The notes under the pieces: model-generated
Told to the model about the DNA's origin: nothing
Seen by the model: only the letters and a program-made list of their open reading frames with translations
Database searches by the model: none
Made by a program: the position numbers and the translations under genes
In this document: positions 30,361-54,901 of the stretch, piece by piece
Position numbering within the stretch: the stretch's first letter is position 1
How the letters are laid out: each line of letters starts with the position of its first letter
IMG/VR virus record: IMGVR_UViG_3300049001_000080
Coordinates: 1-64,000 of that record
Source of the DNA: a virus
DNA length: 64,000 nt
Direction: 5' to 3' (one strand)

Positions 30361-31311
30361 TCAGGCGCTCCAGCTCGCGACGGCGCCGCAGCCGACGGGT
30401 GTGCGGGCTGCCTCCTCGACGATCTCGGCGATGCTCAGGTCCTGACGGAAGGTGTGCCCGACGGTCTGCTCGACGGCGAGGTACTCCTGGGCCAGCTCGG
30501 GGTTGAGCTGGGCAGCTCGCACGAGGGCCGGCTTCGATGACAACACGCAAAAGCAGCAGCTCAGGCGAGGCATGCCGGCGGCGTACGCGGGGTGCACCTC
30601 CAGCTCGCGCGAGCGCAGCCGGTCCCAGACCTGCGCGTCGGTCCAGTCGTGGATCGGCAGCCAGCGGGTGACCTCGCGCTTGCTGTTGCTGGCCGAGTCC
30701 AGGCTCAGCGCCGACTTCTTGGCCCGAGCCGGCGACTCGGCCGCCCGGATGCCGAGGCAGTTGAGGATGCGCACCGGGCGGTCCAGGGCCAGTTCGGCCA
30801 CCAACCGGGTGAGCAGCTTCTTGACCTGGGAGGTCTTCTGGTCGCTGGTGCAGTACCGCGCGGTACTACTCGGCCAGGCAGGCGTGTTGCGCTTCCGAGC
30901 CGCCTGATCCAGCAGACGGTCGTGCTCGGCCCGCTGCCGCTGCGCGGCATCGAGGCTCACGTCGACAGCCGGGACCAAACAGTCCGCCTCGGCCACGTAC
31001 GCAGCGGCTTCGGCGTCCAAGGTGACCCGACGCTGCACGATCTGGTCGAGCAGGTCGCCCTGCGGCCGGCGCACGACCTCGAACCGAATCGGTCCGCCGG
31101 TGGCGTCGTAGCGACGGACCTGCCGCTCGGCCAGCTCGCGGGTGCCCTCCCACTCAACTCGGCCTAGGTCGGCGTGCACGGCGACGATCCGGGACCGCTC
31201 CACCCCCGCGGCGTCGCACCGCTCGACCAGCCAGTCCAGCATCGCCAGAGAGTCCTTGCCGGCGCTGGTGTTGATCAGGACGTAGTCGTAGCTGGTCAGG
31301 TCGACGGTCAT
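30361..31311 (-). CDS. PAPS-reductase-like (adenine nucleotide alpha-hydrolase) protein
   Basis: The 316-residue protein has the PP-loop INTSAGKDSLAML (residues 13-25), VVAVHADLG-type strand, WPSSTARYCTSDQKT, ILNCLGIRAAESPAR and a C-terminal CCFC. These match phage members of the PAPS reductase/DndC-like superfamily, which activate substrates by adenylylation or reduce adenylyl-sulfate. It could act in nucleic acid or sulfur modification; the true substrate is not known. ATG 31309-31311 is preceded by CCGCCAGACAGGAG. Confidence 0.78.
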   Translation of the reverse strand: MTVDLTSYDYVLINTSAGKDSLAMLDWLVERCDAAGVERSRIVAVHADLGRVEWEGTRELAERQVRRYDATGGPIRFEVVRRPQGDLLDQIVQRRVTLDAEAAAYVAEADCLVPAVDVSLDAAQRQRAEHDRLLDQAARKRNTPAWPSSTARYCTSDQKTSQVKKLLTRLVAELALDRPVRILNCLGIRAAESPARAKKSALSLDSASNSKREVTRWLPIHDWTDAQVWDRLRSRELEVHPAYAAGMPRLSCCFCVLSSKPALVRAAQLNPELAQEYLAVEQTVGHTFRQDLSIAEIVEEAARTPVGCGAVASWSA

Positions 31312-31320
31312 CGCTCGCGG

Positions 31321-31349
31321 CTCCTGTCTGGCGGTAAGAGATATCTTAC
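31321..31349 (-). promoter_or_regulatory. Leader plus GTAAGA-N4-TCTTAC palindrome
   Basis: The ribosome-binding leader CCGCCAGACAGGAG (31321-31334 on the minus strand) directly abuts an inverted repeat GTAAGA (31334-31339) and TCTTAC (31344-31349) around GATA. The palindrome resembles a repressor site, and partly resembles the GATAGAAGTATC motif. Confidence 0.5.
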
Positions 31350-31361
31350 AGCAAGGGTCGG

Positions 31362-32537
31362 TCATCTGGCTAGCTGCGGGCGAGCCAGCTCGACTAGGAC
31401 CTGCTGGCTGAGCAGCGCCAGCTCCACGATGACCTCGTCCACGCGGGCAGGTGGCGCGGCGACCTGGGTGGGCACGGCCTCGCGGGGCGCCTCCTGGGCC
31501 CAGCACTCGGCCAGCAGCGCGGCCATCTGCTCGGCGTTGGCCTTGCGGGCCGCCTGCATGCGCTCGAACCACTCGTGGAGCTGCCGCCGGCCGCGGGACG
31601 GGTCGTGCTCCGCCGCCCAGGCCAGGAAGCCCCTGCGCTCGAACTTGAGCCGGGGGTCCCGGAAGTCCCTGACCTCGCGGGCGACGCGGCGCTCGCGGTC
31701 CTGAGCACGGTCCCGGCCGGCGACGAGGGACGGCTCCAGGATCTGCCCCATCAGCCGCAGGACGCCCCTGCCACGAACGGCCAGGCCGGCGCGCTCCATC
31801 CGCTCGGCCAGCCGGCGGGCGGTGGCCTCCGACACGCACAGCAGCTCGCGGACCACCGAGAGCGGGACGTCCAGGAAGTCGTCGTCGGGCAGCTCGCCGA
31901 GGTGGCCGGCCAGGGCCAGGGCCGCCAGCGCCCACCCGTCGGTCCCCACGCACCTCAGGTCGTCGCGCCTGCCCTGGGGCTCCGACCAGACGTCCAGCGA
32001 GGGGTCCAGCACCTGCAAGTCCTCACCGCTCAGAGGTGCCCCAGTAGCATCTTCGCCCCGCTTTTCGCAAGCTTGACCAGGGAGTTCTCTCGCCTCCCCG
32101 CCCTGACAAGTGCTAGAACCCCTACTAGTTAAGATCATCTTGTTAGGCCTAGGAGAGGTACTAGAGGGGGAGATGATCTTCGTCGAGCGGCTGAGAACGT
32201 AAGAGCTACTAGAGGTAGTAGATGTTCTACTGGGGCACCTCTGAGCGGTCGTCGTTATAGACCACTTTGTGAGCCTTGGATCGTCGACGTCGACGCCCTG
32301 GGTGCCCTGCTGGTCGCAGCTCAGCAGGCCTGTGACCTCGCCCGTGGTCCACGGGGCCCAGCGCTGGACGGTGCGCTCGTGCAGGCCGCTGGCCACGGCC
32401 AGGTCGCGCTTGCCCTGGAGGGTGGGGTCGAGGGCGACCGCGGCGGCGATCCTGGCCTGGACGCGCTGCTCCGAGTTCGAGCCAGCGGAGAGGGTCGCGA
32501 TTATGGACCCGAGGGGTGCGCCTACGTTATCCTGCAT
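31362..32537 (-). CDS. Helix-turn-helix protein, candidate replication initiator
   Basis: The 391-residue protein has an N-terminal helix-turn-helix (GKRDLAVASGLHERTVQRW at about 43-61), a Ser/Thr-rich low-complexity middle encoded by the AT-richer repeat segment at 32025-32249, and a C-terminal winged-helix-like region (VVRELLCVSEATARRLAERMERAGL). This resembles phage initiators whose origins lie inside the gene (lambda O style). Replication initiation is an inference; a regulator is possible. The ATG at 32535-32537 has only a weak ribosome-binding site. Confidence 0.6.
   Translation of the reverse strand: MQDNVGAPLGSIIATLSAGSNSEQRVQARIAAAVALDPTLQGKRDLAVASGLHERTVQRWAPWTTGEVTGLLSCDQQGTQGVDVDDPRLTKWSITTTAQRCPSRTSTTSSSSYVLSRSTKIISPSSTSPRPNKMILTSRGSSTCQGGEARELPGQACEKRGEDATGAPLSGEDLQVLDPSLDVWSEPQGRRDDLRCVGTDGWALAALALAGHLGELPDDDFLDVPLSVVRELLCVSEATARRLAERMERAGLAVRGRGVLRLMGQILEPSLVAGRDRAQDRERRVAREVRDFRDPRLKFERRGFLAWAAEHDPSRGRRQLHEWFERMQAARKANAEQMAALLAECWAQEAPREAVPTQVAAPPARVDEVIVELALLSQQVLVELARPQLAR
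32025..32249. other. Repeat-rich segment bounded by 23-bp inverted repeats, candidate origin
   Basis: Arms 32025-32047 and 32227-32249 are perfect reverse complements. Between them the sequence is visibly richer in AT and holds many short repeats: TACTAGAGG twice, AAGATCATCT (32131-32140) with its complement at 32171-32180, and the hairpin AGTAGATGTTCTACT. The segment is 225 bp (75 codons) and keeps the reading frame open. Confidence 0.6.
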
Positions 32538-39900: not shown

Positions 39901-40434
39901 GCGCGCCCCCAGCGAGTAGGCGGCCGGCGCGCCGAACGGGTCGAGGGGCGCCCCGGTGCTGCCGGCGCGCTGGAGCACGAGCCGGACGGTCCGGGCCACC
40001 ACCGGCAGCACGCGCCAGGAGGTGGGCAGCCAGTGGCCCGGCCCGTGGTGCTGCGCGTGCTCGCCCGGTCGCGTGCTCGCCCGGTCGACGCGCTGCGGTG
40101 TGGAGTCGCCCACCGACCGGACGGCGTCGACGCCGCGCTCCACCTCGAAGGCGACCCACGCCCCCGTGCTCTCGTCCTGGTGCTCCACCCAGGCGTCGTG
40201 GGGGAAGTGCGCCAGCTCCAGCGAGAGGTAGTTGACCAGGCGGGCCTCGCCGAGCCGGACCTGGAGCACCTCCTGCACCTGGCTCGACTGCGGCCGGGCG
40301 GGGGTGGACCAGTACCGGTCGGTGCTGTCGCGGGACGTGCCCAGCGCGCTCGGCTCCCCGAGCCCGGCCGCCTGCGCCTGCGCGGCGACGACCGACGCGA
40401 CGGGCAGCCGGTCCACGAACAGGGGCGAGGTCAC
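36958..40434 (-). CDS. Large baseplate/minor tail protein, 1158 aa
   Basis: The GTG at 40432-40434 overlaps the upstream stop (GTGA); the longer frame beyond it is not coding. The product is a very large, strand-rich, Trp/Tyr-rich protein with lectin-like segments (WWVALDLETPWYSADGYVGV) and a stretch of YGxxE repeats near residues 840-870 (TYGALEADAGYGTYAALEG) and again near 960 (TYADMESLGTYGAIEG). The C-terminus is Pro/Tyr-rich (TATYQPTYQPE). It probably bridges baseplate and spikes, by position. Confidence 0.7.
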   Translation of the reverse strand: MTSPLFVDRLPVASVVAAQAQAAGLGEPSALGTSRDSTDRYWSTPARPQSSQVQEVLQVRLGEARLVNYLSLELAHFPHDAWVEHQDESTGAWVAFEVERGVDAVRSVGDSTPQRVDRASTRPGEHAQHHGPGHWLPTSWRVLPVVARTVRLVLQRAGSTGAPLDPFGAPAAYSLGARTLQVGYRINSRADAPRYGDVTTYEDDFASSTDLLGSRVVYSIQEDSPRYAIDPAPGRAWRCDPQPVGYAVVCYYADLRDADGQGQVVDRWFVDPTTVGVHCNLYYSDDEPAGSYPARDQPLGYPIVQQHGESPSPQQPPQRTSAEAVAFGHTTPSYVDVDNAFVQLDTAGPWWVALDLETPWYSADGYVGVGADTDHPILSLGDATLRLVPGAVQFTTAGGVVTQVPLDPLHLRGARWRVMVGYTPRDTDDFPAGVTLTYQLGDLQPVQVTTAARPDTTRPGVIRIGGYPDDGDPGVSGISVRALVLKAVAASAADLGVFMADPQAYVRRAPLAADDSGTTDDSVLRMEPWRSDPQTSPVGLFGGPCDCYADMAWTPVARDYVLRRGYLHLPPTRARFWKFEFTGLSMEPYESLVPVRRQVSVFTTDTVARFSQMTSGASTPQDVGGLPTALALADVSRYADAVGALHGLPDTTRHTATEALYSGSPSEAERVAGFGWVWGFQPWHAGSVAPRFTTTTRHVYETVTVDHRTRVAFFVGLRQLQALRVDYLTDDDTEQYVDLFDDLQWVQSTSAMSLASGALVAASAVSTATSKTFGSAVQVRAVQVATQQSDPAQVLPDDQFLAADLAPNWSAYGDAQLAHEPGSVTVVRGWYPRTYGALEADAGYGTYAALEGRLYGELEGAQSDGVAGGGVQSLPVTPSDGGRIYAAVRVSSSRPTTAPVVVQVVSTHGDVVLAQEGRMLVPGEEARFYVGYTPGSAHSTLTYADMESLGTYGAIEGTSYESHESVAITGAVYVRAAQVLPSNDDFTVTRLSLFDDPILWSFSVDGGTTWYDALDIKNDPDGVLTFPEPGRQLRWRATVYAQGASISALAIRPWYAGLLGGQPPGHGMEPVGPNTSPVDRYPPIHQDPMWRQWHQPVPSWWFGSLRSDVVAQPPPAPEPEPPVEGVYGTTYGTTYPGSPEPPAATVYTATYQPTYQPE

Positions 40435-41702
40435 CGGTCCGCCCCCGGTCGCGCCCCGGCGTAGGGCGCGGACACCATCACGGCGTCGGAGACCGCGCGC
40501 CCGCGCATGATGGCCTCGGGGTCGGCGATGGCCCGGTCCGGGGTGAGGTCGACCGGGCGCCCGTCCGCCGCGGTGACCCGCTCGTAGTCGACGGCCGAGA
40601 TGACCGCGCCCTGGGTGGACTGAGTGTACGCGGTGACCGACTGGATGTCGGAGTTGTAGGACCACGCCTCGCCCTGGTAGGCCGTGAACGCCGGGCGCGC
40701 CCGGTCGACGGGCGTGGCGGAGGCCTGCGGGTAGTACGCCGCCAGCGACGGCCTCGGCACCACCCGGGTCCGGACCTCCCAGTACGTGGAGCTGGCCGAC
40801 GCGTCGCGGATGTGGGCCGGCGAGTGGACCGCCACCCCCTGGGCGTCGACGGTGAGCAGCGCGCCGGCCGGCTTGAGCCGGTCCAGCACGCGGGTCAGCC
40901 GGTACGCCTCCTCCAGCGTCATCGACCGCAGCGGACGGACCACGAACTCGGCCCGGTTGGACGTGGTGGTCCGACCGAATGACCCGGTGCCGCCCTCGAC
41001 GTCGGCGTAGGTGCCGCCGTCCATCGCCCCGTAGGTGACGAAGTGGGTCTCCACCTCGCCGTAGGTCCGCCCCGCCACCGCCGGTGGGGCGCCGCCAGGG
41101 TTGCCGCCGCCGTTCTCGTCGACCAGCGCCCAGGTCTCGTAGACGCGGCAGTCGACGCTCAGCAGCGCGCGGGCCACCGCGGCCATGCCGGCCGGCGTGC
41201 CCGCCATCGGGATGGCGCGCGAGAACTCGCTCACCCGCGACCGGTAGGCGGCGTCCCTCGCGTCCAGCTCGGCCCACTGCTCGGAGGTCGCGGCCTCGGT
41301 GTAGGGCGACAGGTCGAGCCGCTCGCCGGACAGGCGGGGGAAGCCCAGCAGCGCGCCGTAAAGGCGGTCCAGGTCCAGGTACCTCGTCGTGCTGACGACC
41401 GACCCCATGTGCGCGACCAGGTAGCGGCGCCGGAGCTGGCCGGCGCCGGAGTCGCCGAGCACGGCCTTGAGCAGCCGCGAGAGGTGCGACTCCGGCCGCG
41501 TGTCGTAGAGGTCGGGGAACAGGTGCGCGAGCTGCTCGGCCGAGGGCCGCGCCGGCAGCAGCGGGTCGGTGGTCGTGTCCAGCCGGGTCGAGCGCGGCGC
41601 GCCGCTGGTGGGCGCCTGGAGGGCCAGCAGCACGGCGTCCTGGAGGTACCGCCCGCCCGCGCCCTGGTCGAGCGCGGCCGGGTCGCCGTCGAGGGAGGCC
41701 AT
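40431..41702 (-). CDS. Baseplate protein (gpI-like position)
   Basis: The 423-residue protein lies directly after the baseplate J-like gene, the position of P2 gpI/tail protein I. The N-terminal half is helical with SRLLKAVLGDSGAGQLRRRY and LYGALLGFPRL, and the middle carries the YGxxE repeat TYGEVETHFVTYGAMDGG. ATG 41700-41702 overlaps the upstream stop (TGATG). Family relation to gpI is suggested by order and N-terminal style, not by clear similarity. Confidence 0.65.
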   Translation of the reverse strand: MASLDGDPAALDQGAGGRYLQDAVLLALQAPTSGAPRSTRLDTTTDPLLPARPSAEQLAHLFPDLYDTRPESHLSRLLKAVLGDSGAGQLRRRYLVAHMGSVVSTTRYLDLDRLYGALLGFPRLSGERLDLSPYTEAATSEQWAELDARDAAYRSRVSEFSRAIPMAGTPAGMAAVARALLSVDCRVYETWALVDENGGGNPGGAPPAVAGRTYGEVETHFVTYGAMDGGTYADVEGGTGSFGRTTTSNRAEFVVRPLRSMTLEEAYRLTRVLDRLKPAGALLTVDAQGVAVHSPAHIRDASASSTYWEVRTRVVPRPSLAAYYPQASATPVDRARPAFTAYQGEAWSYNSDIQSVTAYTQSTQGAVISAVDYERVTAADGRPVDLTPDRAIADPEAIMRGRAVSDAVMVSAPYAGARPGADR

Positions 41703-44479
41703 CAGGACACGCCGAACGAGTTGGCGGCCTTGGCCACGTAGTTGATCGAGTAGAGCGCGGGCACCTCGTTGTCGCCGAGCTGCACGTCCGCGGCCCGGGC
41801 CGGCGAGGACCCGGCGGTGATGAAGGAGATGCGGGTCCCGGCCGCGTCCACCCGCTCGATGGCGTAGGCGCCGCCGGTGGTCGGCTCGGCGCTGGTGAGG
41901 AGCCGGATGTTGTCCACGCCCGTCACCTCGTGCGCGACCTGGATGACGTCGGACACCTGCACGGGCGAGCCGAAGTCCTTCGCCGCGAGGAAGACGGCCA
42001 GGGAGGCCTGGAGCGCGGTGGCCACCTGGGCCGGGTCGTAGCCGGGGACGAACATGATCGCGAAGTTCAGCCGCAGTAGCACGCGCTTGGCGGCGTGGGC
42101 CCGCACGTCGGTCGCGACCAGTCGCCACCGCTCGACCCGCTCCTGGACGTCGCGTGGGATGGCGTTGTAGGAGTACTGGAGCGACGCGGCGGCGTTGTTC
42201 GCCGGGTGGTGGGCGGCCAGCCACTCCAGCCCGAACAGCGACCGCGGGCTGTACCCGTACGCCGTGTCGTCGTGGACGACCCAGTAGTCGGTGCCCTTGA
42301 CGTAGGTGTTCCCGCCGATGATCAGCGGGGAGGGGAAGACGTCGATCGGGCCGAACGCGAGCTGCATGAAGATGTTGGCCGCGGTCGGGTGCGTGGAGAC
42401 GGTGCCCTGGCGGACGAACTTGCCGGTGAACAGCGCGTCGGTCGAGCCCGACGTGAACACCCGGGCGGTCCGCATGTACGTCGTCTCGCTGGCGTCGACC
42501 GGCCGGTCCCCGTCCACCCAGACGTCCACCCGGTTGGTGATCCCGGCGGCCGGGTCGTTCCTGCTGGCCGAGCTGTTGTACTCGAAGTCGAGGTCGTAGA
42601 TCGCCCCGTCGGTCAGGCCCACGCCGATCGTGTGCACCTCGGGCGGGATCACGGTGGCGTCGAACGAGTTACCTGTGAAGTAGGTCCGACCGCCTCGGCG
42701 AGCCAGGAAGGTGCCGTTCCGAGTGGTGGGACACCAGATCGGTCCTGCGTAATGACGCAGGCTCTTCTTCATGGGGGCGACGCTTACGTGGCGTACCTTT
42801 TTAATGTTGACGTGATGCATCTGTACGCGGCCAAATGGAGTGTCAAGGACCTTACGGCCTTGGCGTGTCGGGAGGCCAACTAGTGCGCAAAGTGCCTGGA
42901 ATACATCTGCCTGATCGGCACTCGCAGTGCAGAAATACCGAGTACCCGTGCCTGCCCCTCTGACCCCTCCTCCTTGCATTCCCCCGTCACCCTTGATCAA
43001 GGTGTCGATCAACATCTCGCGCTGATGGACAGGTAGGACTGAGATCAGCTCGTAGGTCAGCTTCTTGTCGGGCAAGGCTGATCGGACTTGCCGGGCTAGT
43101 TCACGTGAAAAGGCAAAGATCGTGATGTCGTCGTCGATGTAGGTCTGATACGGATGCCCCAGCCTCTTGAGGAGGAGTCGGATCTCCTCCACCTTCTCAG
43201 GATTGGCGAGGTGACTCTGTCCGATTTTGACTCGAAGCTTCCTTGGCTGCGAGTCGAAGGAGCCGTCGCTAGCGACCCACCCCAGTAGTCGTACAAAATC
43301 ATCGGTATAAATAGATTCGATGGACTCTTCGAGGGGAGCCGTAACCACGATGCCGTCCGACGGCCGCAAGTCATGAGTCTCTCGTAGTATGGCGGGCTGG
43401 CTCGTGCGAATCCGGTGAGCGTTTGTGACCGGCCAACGGTGGTTCGTCGTCACCAAGGCCGAGATGGACCTCCCCTCCATCGATACGAGGGGCTCGTCTA
43501 CTTCCGCTCGGTAAAGATCTGTCACCGGCGTCCATTCAGCGACGCCGCGATCCAGATTCAAGGAGAGAATCTCATCGCCGATCTGGATCTGTCGATGGTC
43601 TACCCAGCCACTGTGTGACAGGGCCTGCGTGTTTTTGTCCACGCAGTAATGTACCCCCAGGGTTAGGATCTGGCCGGCATCGAGGTCGGCGCCCAGGGCC
43701 GGGTTGTCGGCGTAGATGTAGGTCGCGCTGGTGGCGGGGATGGAGCTGGTCGCGTCGCCGGACCCGTCGATCTGGACCTGCTCGCGCCAGTGCGAGGAGG
43801 AGCCGATCACCCTGGCCCGGGTGGCCACCCCGTCGTCGGTGGTGTCGGGGGTGCTGTCCTCCAGCGAGAGGCCCAGGAACATGTCCTCGGTGCCGGCCAG
43901 GCTGCGGAACACCGTCCGCTTGAACCGGTCGATGAGCGCGAGGTCGTCCTCGGAGCTGGTGCCGCCGGTCGTGGGCGAGGAGTTGGTCACGCTGGCGACC
44001 CCGCTGGCCGGCGAGGCGAGCCTGACCAGGGTGTTGGCCGCGAGGTTCCCGGACTGGCCCCCGACGATCGCCTGCACCGGGACGTCCACGCTCGACACCC
44101 CGCGCTGGAGGATCGCGGGAGAGACGGTCGCGAACACAGCGGGGACCGAGGTGGCCGTGGTGACCTGGGTGCCGGCGGCGATCGGGTAGTCCTGGTCGGC
44201 CGGCGTCGGGCGGGCGAACGTGACGACCCCGGTGCCGCGCTGCGCGGCGAACCTGGTGAAGCCGAACACGGCCACGAAGTCGTCGAGGTCGGCGCCGCGC
44301 TTGGAGTCGATGTCGAGCTGGTAGTTCAGCAGGTGCTGGTCGACGTACGCGGCGGCCACCGACTCGGCCACCACGTCGAGGATCTTGCGCACCGGCGTGC
44401 CGACCGAGGTGTCCAGCTCGGGCTCGGAGACGGCCAGGGCCGCGACCATCTGGGCGGCGACGTCGGCGGCGCTGGCCAT
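41702..44479 (-). CDS. Baseplate J-like protein precursor containing an intein
   Basis: The 925-residue frame encodes a gpJ-like baseplate wedge protein (N-terminal DTSVGTPVRKILDVVAES, YPIAAGTQVTTATSVPAVFAT, GQSGNLAANT) interrupted after residue 278 by a 326-residue intein (42668-43645) and resuming at SFDATVIPPEVHTIGVG. After splicing the mature protein would be 599 residues. It joins gp25-like wedge components to the outer baseplate. Overlaps with both neighbours fit the operon. Failure to splice would probably block assembly, so splicing is likely essential. Confidence 0.85.
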   Translation of the reverse strand: MASAADVAAQMVAALAVSEPELDTSVGTPVRKILDVVAESVAAAYVDQHLLNYQLDIDSKRGADLDDFVAVFGFTRFAAQRGTGVVTFARPTPADQDYPIAAGTQVTTATSVPAVFATVSPAILQRGVSSVDVPVQAIVGGQSGNLAANTLVRLASPASGVASVTNSSPTTGGTSSEDDLALIDRFKRTVFRSLAGTEDMFLGLSLEDSTPDTTDDGVATRARVIGSSSHWREQVQIDGSGDATSSIPATSATYIYADNPALGADLDAGQILTLGVHYCVDKNTQALSHSGWVDHRQIQIGDEILSLNLDRGVAEWTPVTDLYRAEVDEPLVSMEGRSISALVTTNHRWPVTNAHRIRTSQPAILRETHDLRPSDGIVVTAPLEESIESIYTDDFVRLLGWVASDGSFDSQPRKLRVKIGQSHLANPEKVEEIRLLLKRLGHPYQTYIDDDITIFAFSRELARQVRSALPDKKLTYELISVLPVHQREMLIDTLIKGDGGMQGGGVRGAGTGTRYFCTASADQADVFQALCALVGLPTRQGRKVLDTPFGRVQMHHVNIKKVRHVSVAPMKKSLRHYAGPIWCPTTRNGTFLARRGGRTYFTGNSFDATVIPPEVHTIGVGLTDGAIYDLDFEYNSSASRNDPAAGITNRVDVWVDGDRPVDASETTYMRTARVFTSGSTDALFTGKFVRQGTVSTHPTAANIFMQLAFGPIDVFPSPLIIGGNTYVKGTDYWVVHDDTAYGYSPRSLFGLEWLAAHHPANNAAASLQYSYNAIPRDVQERVERWRLVATDVRAHAAKRVLLRLNFAIMFVPGYDPAQVATALQASLAVFLAAKDFGSPVQVSDVIQVAHEVTGVDNIRLLTSAEPTTGGAYAIERVDAAGTRISFITAGSSPARAADVQLGDNEVPALYSINYVAKAANSFGVS
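42668..43645 (-). mobile_element. Intein with LAGLIDADG homing endonuclease domain
   Basis: Residues 279-604 of the gpJ precursor. The splice junctions read HY/C and GN/S. The N-terminal block is CVDKNTQALSHSGW, block B is TTNH (344-347), and two LAGLIDADG-type helices are LLGWVASDG (398-406) and LIDTLIKGDG (490-499). The last residues are TYFTGN followed by Ser, with Gly where His is most usual before Asn. The DNA is richer in AT and uses different codons from the flanking gene, supporting later insertion. Confidence 0.88.
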
Positions 44480-44916
44480 CAGCCGCCGGTCCGGGAGGTG
44501 AGGGCGACCTGCTGGCCGTCGACCGTGCGCAGCAGGATGGAGACCTGGACGGTGTCGAAGGTGGCGACCACCTGGACGTCCTGCACCTCGGCCACCACGT
44601 CGGCGGTCTGGTAGCGGCTGCGGGTGGCGGTGAGGGTGTCGCGCTGGATCTTGTCGCGCTGCACCGCGACGTAGTTGGTGATGACCCGCTGCGCCTCCTG
44701 CTCGACCGCGAACCGCGTCGCCTCGTCCAGCGGCACGCCCACCATGTCGAGCAGCCGGGACCCCCAGCCGGGGTGGAACCGGTCGTTGCCCAGCGGCTCG
44801 CCCAGCGCCATCCGCAGGTCCTGGGCGACCTTGGGCGCGCCGTCCAGCATCGCGTACGAGGCGCCCGCCAGCGCCAGGTCACCGTCCACCACGGCCAGCG
44901 TCCGCACCCCGCCCAC
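44479..44916 (-). CDS. gp25/GPW-like baseplate wedge protein
   Basis: About 145 residues with the gp25 pattern: a start strand, LRMALGEPLGNDRFHPGWGSRLLDMVG, and a long helix (EQEAQRVITNYVAVQRDK). In contractile tails gp25 triggers sheath polymerisation at the baseplate. The start is ambiguous among three GTGs (44905-44922); GTG 44914-44916, downstream of GAAGAGGTGGAG, is used. It overlaps the gpJ ATG. Confidence 0.8.
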   Translation of the reverse strand: MGGVRTLAVVDGDLALAGASYAMLDGAPKVAQDLRMALGEPLGNDRFHPGWGSRLLDMVGVPLDEATRFAVEQEAQRVITNYVAVQRDKIQRDTLTATRSRYQTADVVAEVQDVQVVATFDTVQVSILLRTVDGQQVALTSRTGG

Positions 44917-44956
44917 CTCCACCTCTTCCGGCGCCCGGCGCGGGGCCGGGACCGGG

Positions 44957-45292
44957 CTACGTCGTGCCGTCCTCGACCAGCCCGAGGGCCACCAGGGCGT
45001 CCAGCACGGACAGCGTGACGGCGTCCGCGCCCGCCCTGGCCCCCGACACCACCGGCGGCCGTGGGGCGTCAATCATCGCTGACAGCACCCAGGTGTCGCC
45101 GGTCATCCTGGACACCACCCACAGCTCGTCGACGGCCGGCGGCGGGTTCCCCTTGGGGCGGGTCGAGTAGCGGACGACCCGCTCGCGCCCGAGCGTGTCC
45201 CGCACGATGCAGGTCCCGTCCTCCAACACCGAGGTGACCCGGGCACGGGTCGTCTCCAGGCCGGCGGGCGGGCGTCGCGGGTCGAGCGTCAC
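44957..45292 (-). CDS. Small baseplate-region protein, 111 aa
   Basis: The GTG at 45290-45292 overlaps the hub gene's stop (GTGA). The product is strand-rich (RVTSVLEDGTCIVRDTLGRER, ELWVVSRMTGDTWVLSAM), suggesting a small OB- or SH3-like barrel as in phage spike-base proteins, with a helical end. By position it belongs to the baseplate hub. The fold is an inference. Confidence 0.6.
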   Translation of the reverse strand: MTLDPRRPPAGLETTRARVTSVLEDGTCIVRDTLGRERVVRYSTRPKGNPPPAVDELWVVSRMTGDTWVLSAMIDAPRPPVVSGARAGADAVTLSVLDALVALGLVEDGTT

Positions 45293-53410: not shown

Positions 53411-54901
53411 TCACGCGGCCACCGTGGCGCTCAGGTCCTCGGTGGTCCCGGTCGCCACGTTGATCGAGAAGCTGACGACCAGGTAGTTCAGGGGGTACGC
53501 CGGCTGGTAGGCGAACTTGACCTCGACCACCGACGGGTCGATGCTGCGCTGTCGGACGGCCAGCCCGGTGTAGCCGACGATCGTGCCGACGATGACCGCG
53601 TGCTCCAGCAGGCCGGAGACCACCGACTTGACCGTCAGCGTGGTGGTCGTGTCGATCGGCTGACCGATCAGGCCGGAGTTGTTCAGGCCGGTCTCGCACA
53701 GCGCCACCAGGGCGTCGCGCGCCCGCACCACCGACAGCTCCTTGGTGTTGATCGAGGTCGTGTCGGTGGTCAGGCTGTGGCGCACCACGAGCTGCCCGGC
53801 CCGGTCGACCTCGACCAGGAGCACGCCCGCCGCGGCGTACTGGTTCTTCGCGCTGGTCGACGGAGCAGTGCCGGACAGGCCCGTGAAGGAGCGCACCAGC
53901 TCGCGCGTCAGCGCCTTCTGCACCGGCAGCGCGGCGGCCCGCCCGGCCAGCGCCGCAGCCAGGTACTGGTGGCCGAGCGAGAGGTACTGGAGCGAGCCGC
54001 CGTTGTAGTAGCTCATCCCCTGCGAGCCGGCGTAGACGAGCGCGAGCCGCTTGCTGCGGAACCCGCCGCCGGAGACCAGGGTGTCCGGGGTCGTGCCCAC
54101 GCCCGCGTCGAACCCGAGCATGCCGGTGCGGAAGTAGCCGTCGGCGGAGGCGGCCGTCAGGTGCGTCGACAGGTCGACGCCGACCCCCGCCGCGTCGGCG
54201 GCGATGACGTCGTCGGTGAGGGGCACGACGACGCTCACCGAGTAGTCGGTCGCGACCTTCGCGTAGGCGGCGCTCAGGGCCGTCTTGCGTGCCGTCGAGA
54301 TGGCCCCAGAGGTGGTCGCGCCGGACCCCGGCGGGGTGGTGGCGCACAGGACCAGCTCGCCGGACCCGTTCTCGAACGCGATCTTCGCGGCCAGGCTGAG
54401 GGGGGAGGTGACGCCCTTGTACCCGACCTGCCCGAGCGACGGCGGCGTGAGGTTGAGCGGCTCGCCGTAGGCGTCCTTGACGTCCTCGTAGCTGCTGTAC
54501 CTGGTCGGGTCGTAGTAGGTCGGCTCGGCGTAGTGGTAGGTCGCGAAGACCGGCGTGTCGCCGCTGAGCGTGCCGCCACCGGCGCGGGTGATGTCGGTGT
54601 AGTAGTCCTGGTTCGTCGACGGCGAGCTGGTCGTGGTGACCACGTAGTCGGACGAGACCACCACGGCGCCGGTGTCCACCCGCGTGATCACCAGCGTGGC
54701 GCCGTCGAGGCCCTTCTTGGCGAACCGCCAGGCCGGCGAGGTCGCCAGCGTGAACTGCTCGCTGCCGGACCGGTAGCCGACCGCGGGTCCGACGATGGCC
54801 ACCAGGGTCGGCGGTAGCCCGGAGGTGGATGCCAGGGGCGTCACGACCTCTTCGATGTACACACCGGGAGCCGTGTACCCATGCGCGAAGTCCTGGACCA
54901 C
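53411..54901 (-). CDS. Contractile tail sheath protein
   Basis: The 496-residue protein starts FAHGYTAPGVYIEEV, the standard sheath N-terminus (PGVY-x-E), contains long strand-rich insert domains, and ends with the conserved sheath core (LVSGLLEHAVIVGTIVGYTGL, FAYQPAYPLNYLVVSFSIN). It polymerises round the tube and contracts on infection. It shows that the phage is a myovirus. Confidence 0.95.
   Translation of the reverse strand: MVQDFAHGYTAPGVYIEEVVTPLASTSGLPPTLVAIVGPAVGYRSGSEQFTLATSPAWRFAKKGLDGATLVITRVDTGAVVVSSDYVVTTTSSPSTNQDYYTDITRAGGGTLSGDTPVFATYHYAEPTYYDPTRYSSYEDVKDAYGEPLNLTPPSLGQVGYKGVTSPLSLAAKIAFENGSGELVLCATTPPGSGATTSGAISTARKTALSAAYAKVATDYSVSVVVPLTDDVIAADAAGVGVDLSTHLTAASADGYFRTGMLGFDAGVGTTPDTLVSGGGFRSKRLALVYAGSQGMSYYNGGSLQYLSLGHQYLAAALAGRAAALPVQKALTRELVRSFTGLSGTAPSTSAKNQYAAAGVLLVEVDRAGQLVVRHSLTTDTTSINTKELSVVRARDALVALCETGLNNSGLIGQPIDTTTTLTVKSVVSGLLEHAVIVGTIVGYTGLAVRQRSIDPSVVEVKFAYQPAYPLNYLVVSFSINVATGTTEDLSATVAA

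Follow-up and report, generated by a model that had tools for sequence, protein, structure and literature searches.

The window analysed here, positions 1 to 64,000 of IMG/VR virus record IMGVR_UViG_3300049001_000080 (64,000 of 102,445 bases in total), contains a cluster of contractile-tail genes encoding a hub-like NlpC/P60 protein, a gp25-like wedge protein, the baseplate J protein (gpJ), a DUF7297 virion protein, and a minor tail protein. The gp25-like baseplate wedge gene (44479..45072, minus strand; PHROG 2669, PF04965) is the upstream neighbor of gpJ and the DUF7297 gene (40431..41702, minus strand; PF23970, E 1e-46, and alignment) its downstream neighbor, an order that recurs in Myrna and Pinkcreek. 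A tail sheath gene at 53411..54901 on the minus strand (PHROG 2839, E 5e-71) shows the tail to be contractile. This phage is related to Mycobacterium, Gordonia, and Rhodococcus myoviruses and to a Streptomyces plasmid carrying the same tail genes; it is an actinobacterial-type, contractile-tailed phage. The plasmid, pRLB1-9.1 (L287; 154 kb), encodes ParA, shares the tail gene order of the window, and is apparently a contractile-tail phage-plasmid. Elsewhere in the window, a phosphoadenosine phosphosulfate reductase-like gene (30361-31953, minus strand; PHROG 424, E 3e-31) possibly serves DNA modification or sulfur metabolism.

The gpJ precursor is encoded by an open reading frame of 925 amino acids (41702-44479, minus strand). 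Its two flanking portions match Baseplate_J (PF04865, E 1e-20) and the PHROG 6 baseplate wedge family (E 9e-41), and with its PF04865 domain and its position between the gp25-like and DUF7297 tail genes of a sheathed phage, the host protein is a baseplate J protein, as the initial annotation had read it. The N-extein (43646..44479, minus strand; residues 1-278; PF04865, PHROG 6) is 55% identical to that of an intein-free relative, L090. The C-extein (41702..42667, minus strand; 321 residues and the stop codon, beginning with Ser+1) shows homology to Myrna 136 and L090, among others. Taken together, the exteins are 48% identical to L090 and 42% identical to gpJ of pRLB1-9.1.

Between the exteins lies an in-frame insert of 326 residues (42668..43645, minus strand; precursor residues 279-604), which begins CVDKNTQ, ends RTYFTGN, and is followed by SFDATVIPP. 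Sequence, family, and structural model assign it a HINT splicing domain and a LAGLIDADG endonuclease. The boundaries first proposed for it are exact to the base, from Cys1 to a terminal Gly-Asn and then Ser. Conservation was gauged in 60 relatives found by block B and block F patterns and, as a check, in 53 more found by N-terminal-region or block B patterns. The putative first nucleophile, Cys1 at block A position 1 (43643..43645, minus strand), is invariant in both sets (60/60 and 53/53). Block B reads TTNHRW at intein residues 66-71 (43433..43450, minus strand), supplying the reported TTNH with Thr66 (B:7) and His69 (B:10), as well as Trp71 (B:12). Block F opens with PIWC (42731..42742, minus strand), whose Cys305 (F:4) is likewise invariant in 60/60 and 53/53 relatives, and the end of block G with the +1 residue (42665..42676, minus strand) contributes Thr324 (G:5), Gly325 (G:6), Asn326 (G:7), and Ser+1. 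The core features of an intein are thereby all present, namely an N-terminal nucleophile, a block B TxxH, a C-terminal Asn, and a +1 Ser. Both LAGLIDADG-like helices of the initial annotation are recovered, one acid in each: the first is predicted at residues 115-127 with D127 (helix and following strand, 43256..43303, minus strand; PF14528, 22.4 bits), and the second at 206-220 with D220 (helix and following strand, 42974..43030, minus strand). The penultimate His that is usual, though not obligatory, in inteins is absent, and Gly325 stands in its place. This substitution was correctly noticed at first reading, but it is no oddity: Gly is constant in 60/60 relatives and also occurs in the RDF intein, a class 1 intein for which splicing with a penultimate Gly has been demonstrated (PMC5050341). 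Gly325 as a sign of decay was rejected on the same constancy. Judged by its sequence, a 326-residue open insert with all splicing residues and with homologues that span 80% or more of it is not a product of chance.

Every relative examined joins both gpJ flanks directly where the window has the intein. In the nearest relative, L090 (IMGVR_UViG_3300007790_001540), SPDVHY/SVDLTTMPPK (the slash marking the junction) aligns with TLGVHY/[intein]/SFDATVIPPE, and the smooth joining of LGVHY to SFDATVIPP that had been remarked upon is mirrored by VHY/SVD at the same point. The corresponding junction in Myrna, Pinkcreek, Finch, and RedWattleHog is DY/TF or DY/TW (DY/TF in Myrna), and that of pRLB1-9.1 gpJ is DY/TW. 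A comparison with intein-free gpJ relatives, as originally proposed, bears the reading out: all 39 IMG/VR gpJ loci fetched show both flanks, and none carries the insert, as an intein or as an ordinary domain. These loci were retrieved with alignments as queries, the whole precursor having found no relatives in IMG/VR. In GenBank, the whole precursor matched 498 records, and no intein in gpJ was found among them; one only, Pinkcreek, covers 80% of the precursor at one place, and its intein lies in another gene. No second intein of the same family was found elsewhere in the record from which the window is taken.

Single-sequence searches with the intein gave no match among PDB sequences or NCBIfam, none above threshold among curated intein models, and a Pfam LAGLIDADG_3 score of 22.4 bits, just short of the 22.5 cut-off. 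Since this sub-threshold LAGLIDADG match was the most that a lone sequence yielded, a family profile and a predicted fold were needed. The profile search originally suggested against intein and LAGLIDADG models is weak for this divergent sequence, while 7/60 relatives match the Intein_splicing model. The family profile found its best match among PDB sequences in the class 3 AceL NrdHF intein (E 2e-6). An AlphaFold2 model built with the 60 relatives in the alignment is highly confident (pLDDT 96, pTM 0.93), and its best solved-structure matches in Foldseek are the TliVMA intein (E 6e-16), PI-PfuI, and PI-SceI, all LAGLIDADG-endonuclease inteins; lower-ranked matches comprise free LAGLIDADG enzymes, I-DmoI among them, and again AceL NrdHF. 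The predicted structure thus has the HINT fold. Sequence, modeled fold, clean insertion relative to intein-free relatives, and family membership together support the identification of the insert as an intein.

The insert is AT-richer than its surroundings, as initially noted, with a GC content of 0.574 compared to 0.712 in the 1 kb on either side and 0.719 in the whole window. Together with the metagenomic origin of the record and the lack of a second known copy, this marked change in composition could speak for an assembly chimera. Such an artifact is barely credible, considering that both junctions are codon-exact at the point where the relatives join, that the reading frame holds, and that inteins of this family mostly have a lower GC content than their flanks (67/79 loci). 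A drop as great as that of the window intein occurs in only 4/79 related inteins and would fit a fairly recent arrival in gpJ.

The whole is best explained, with considerable confidence, by a large, self-excising, homing LAGLIDADG intein in gpJ that splices, probably in class 1 order. The intein would have entered the gpJ gene at the boundary of the Tyr278 and Ser279 codons (numbering of the mature protein), and the HINT domain of the translated 925-residue precursor would fold and excise itself. Thr66 and His69 would activate the N-terminal peptide bond for a shift onto Cys1, the acyl group would pass from Cys1 to Ser+1, and Asn326 would then cyclise. Ligation of the exteins would yield a 599-residue gpJ for baseplate assembly, while the endonuclease domain would cleave gpJ alleles lacking the intein in co-infecting phages and so copy the element into them. 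Because the splicing residues and both endonuclease acids are intact, the insert is most likely a splicing intein capable of homing.

We infer, in agreement with the initial annotation, that splicing would be required for virion assembly. A counterpoint comes from the AlphaFold2 model of the intein-free gpJ of L090, which is of moderate confidence overall (pLDDT 72) and of low confidence around the insertion site (residues 268-294). This stretch is perhaps a linker that could tolerate an unspliced insert, in which case a splicing-dead intein might be retained as an extra gpJ domain. We regard that outcome as highly improbable: all family-conserved splicing residues and both endonuclease acids are intact, assembly would probably suffer if a core wedge protein carried 326 additional residues, and the insert was found as a domain in 0/39 gpJ loci.

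The initial annotation overlooked a further feature, the combination of Cys1 with the Trp-Cys-Thr (WCT) triplet of class 3 inteins. Class 3 inteins are defined by a triplet at B:12, F:4, and G:5, with WCT as its signature (PMC3196547; PMC7891396), and have no nucleophile at position 1 (PMC3196547). A Thr at B:7 is typical of class 1, whereas class 3 has no conserved residue there (PMC7891396). The window intein bears the complete triplet in Trp71, Cys305, and Thr324, and it also has Cys1 and Thr66, the position-1 nucleophile and B:7 residue of class 1; with Cys1 present, it is not filed as class 3. Going by sequence marks, the family to which it belongs mixes the two classes. All 60 relatives keep Cys1, Thr B:7, His B:10, Cys F:4, Gly G:6, and Asn G:7; Trp B:12 occurs in 52/60 and Thr G:5 in 57/60, and 51/60 combine Cys1, the complete triplet, and Gly. 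In the further 53 members, Cys1 and Cys F:4 are kept in 53/53 and the full set of marks in 33/53, which brings Cys1 to 113 invariant relatives and the full set to 84 sequences.

The complete triplet may leave room for either splicing class. In a class 3 route, Cys305, set up by His69 and Thr324, would attack the N-terminal bond directly, and Cys1 would be dispensable. Besides the triplet at B:12, F:4, and G:5, which is the class 3 signature (PMC3196547; PMC7891396), this route can draw on the profile match to AceL NrdHF as the best among PDB sequences (E 2e-6). Cys1 and the B:7 Thr are strictly kept, yet class 3 inteins need neither, and the family profile scores 138 bits, over the full length, on the class 1 RDF intein compared to 28 bits on a phage RecB intein read as class 3. 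A class 3 route therefore appears rather unlikely. Inteins with mixed motifs have some precedent in its favor: Tori and Perler reportedly studied three inteins with mixed class motifs in 2011. Given the far higher match to the RDF intein, splicing is probably initiated by Cys1 rather than Cys305, in class 1 order. Class 3 inteins have been proposed to arise in phages from Cys1-plus-WCT progenitors. That the present family represents an extant link between the two classes and is of this progenitor type, with both Cys1 and Cys305 accepting the first acyl group, strikes us as distinctly unlikely.

Comparison with characterized inteins places these marks in context. The mycobacteriophage RDF intein (Bethlehem gp51 type; SargentShorty9 gp54 was compared) shares Cys1, Cys F:4, Thr G:5, the penultimate Gly, and a LAGLIDADG domain with the window intein, but it has Val at B:12, resides in a recombination directionality factor, and is only about 24% identical. 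The class 3 inteins MP-Be DnaB, MchDnaB1, and AceL NrdHF share the HINT fold and the triplet at B:12, F:4, and G:5 (with Met at B:12 in AceL NrdHF), but they lack the position-1 nucleophile, whereas the window intein has both Cys1 and Thr B:7. MchDnaB1 also keeps the penultimate His, in contrast to Gly325.

Members of the family are widespread. A tblastn search recovered 207 GenBank phage records, of which 155 align over at least 80% of the intein length, with identities up to 30% and a best E of 2e-35; IMG/VR inteins reach 41% identity to the window intein. Three partly overlapping IMG/VR scans gave 80, 67, and 25 loci, and a family scan of bacterial and archaeal genomes gave 56. By profile matches or by our reading, the host genes encode portal proteins, terminases, DNA polymerases, RecB-like nucleases, late sigma factors, methyltransferases, and anaerobic ribonucleotide reductase and, among tail components, tape measure and minor tail proteins, a tube-domain protein (L029), and the DUF7297 protein. 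The latter bear on two expectations of the initial annotation. Portal and terminase genes are indeed common hosts, in line with the view that phage inteins usually occupy replication or terminase genes, but other tail genes are hosts too, which makes a tail host uncommon rather than unprecedented. The gpJ site was found nowhere else in the searches. The tube-domain case (L029:1684-2610) is a same-family intein in a contractile injection system tube domain protein (PF19266, 27.3 bits, barely over the cut-off), a further contractile-tail host.

A 70-member tree places the window intein, with an SH-aLRT of 99, beside the terminase-like inteins of IMG/VR contigs L010-L023. These are its closest relatives in sequence (39-41% identity) and match it in length, Cys1, WCT triplet, and Gly-Asn end, but they differ in host gene and insertion site; their host is a Walker-type ATPase/nuclease, read as terminase-like and without a PHROG or Pfam match. 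The DUF7297 inteins of the Pinkcreek type form a separate branch of the same tree. Their host is the next gene downstream of gpJ (L002:4033-6411, which is gp135 of Mycobacterium phage Pinkcreek, annotated only as a hypothetical protein; also L046, L048, and L197). Pinkcreek gp135 and its IMG/VR relatives share with the window intein the family and residence in a tail structural gene of related phages, but gene, site, and branch all differ. A shared insertion site with the Pinkcreek tail intein was rejected, since that intein is in gp135 rather than gpJ and on another branch. Because the two kinds of intein fall on different branches, neighboring tail genes of related phages were invaded separately by inteins, on two occasions. 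The DUF7297 homologue of the window (40431-41702, minus strand) is intein-free at the Pinkcreek-type site, and its C-terminus is apparently shorter than in Myrna, Finch, and RedWattleHog.

Known intein hosts are mostly DNA-metabolism enzymes and packaging proteins. For mycobacteriophage inteins, one survey records as hosts terminases, portal, and DNA-metabolism genes along with hypothetical proteins (PMC5050341), and a 2013 paper names terminases and non-structural genes (PMC3706429). No intein in baseplate J was found in the open-access literature, and gpJ had no match in the roughly 40 extein clusters of related inteins (43 by single linkage at E 1e-8). As far as searched, gpJ is therefore a new intein host, adding a core baseplate protein to the list of intein-carrying genes; because this protein is structural, virion assembly would then include splicing among its steps. 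Inteins with Cys1 and WCT form a large family, but mixed-mark inteins as such are not new; the 84 sequences gathered here with the full set of marks provide material for asking by mutation which cysteine starts splicing, and so how class 3 arose.

The family also extends into cellular genomes. Purple sulfur bacteria and several archaeal and candidate-phylum genomes (L133-L147, L149, L158, L165-L168) carry members that have Cys1 but often Val at B:12, in what we read as an anaerobic ribonucleotide reductase gene. Among L148-L187 (Nocardiopsis and relatives), many genomes have a member in one gene, read as primase-polymerase-like, at GW.DIGY/SFMACAHG.
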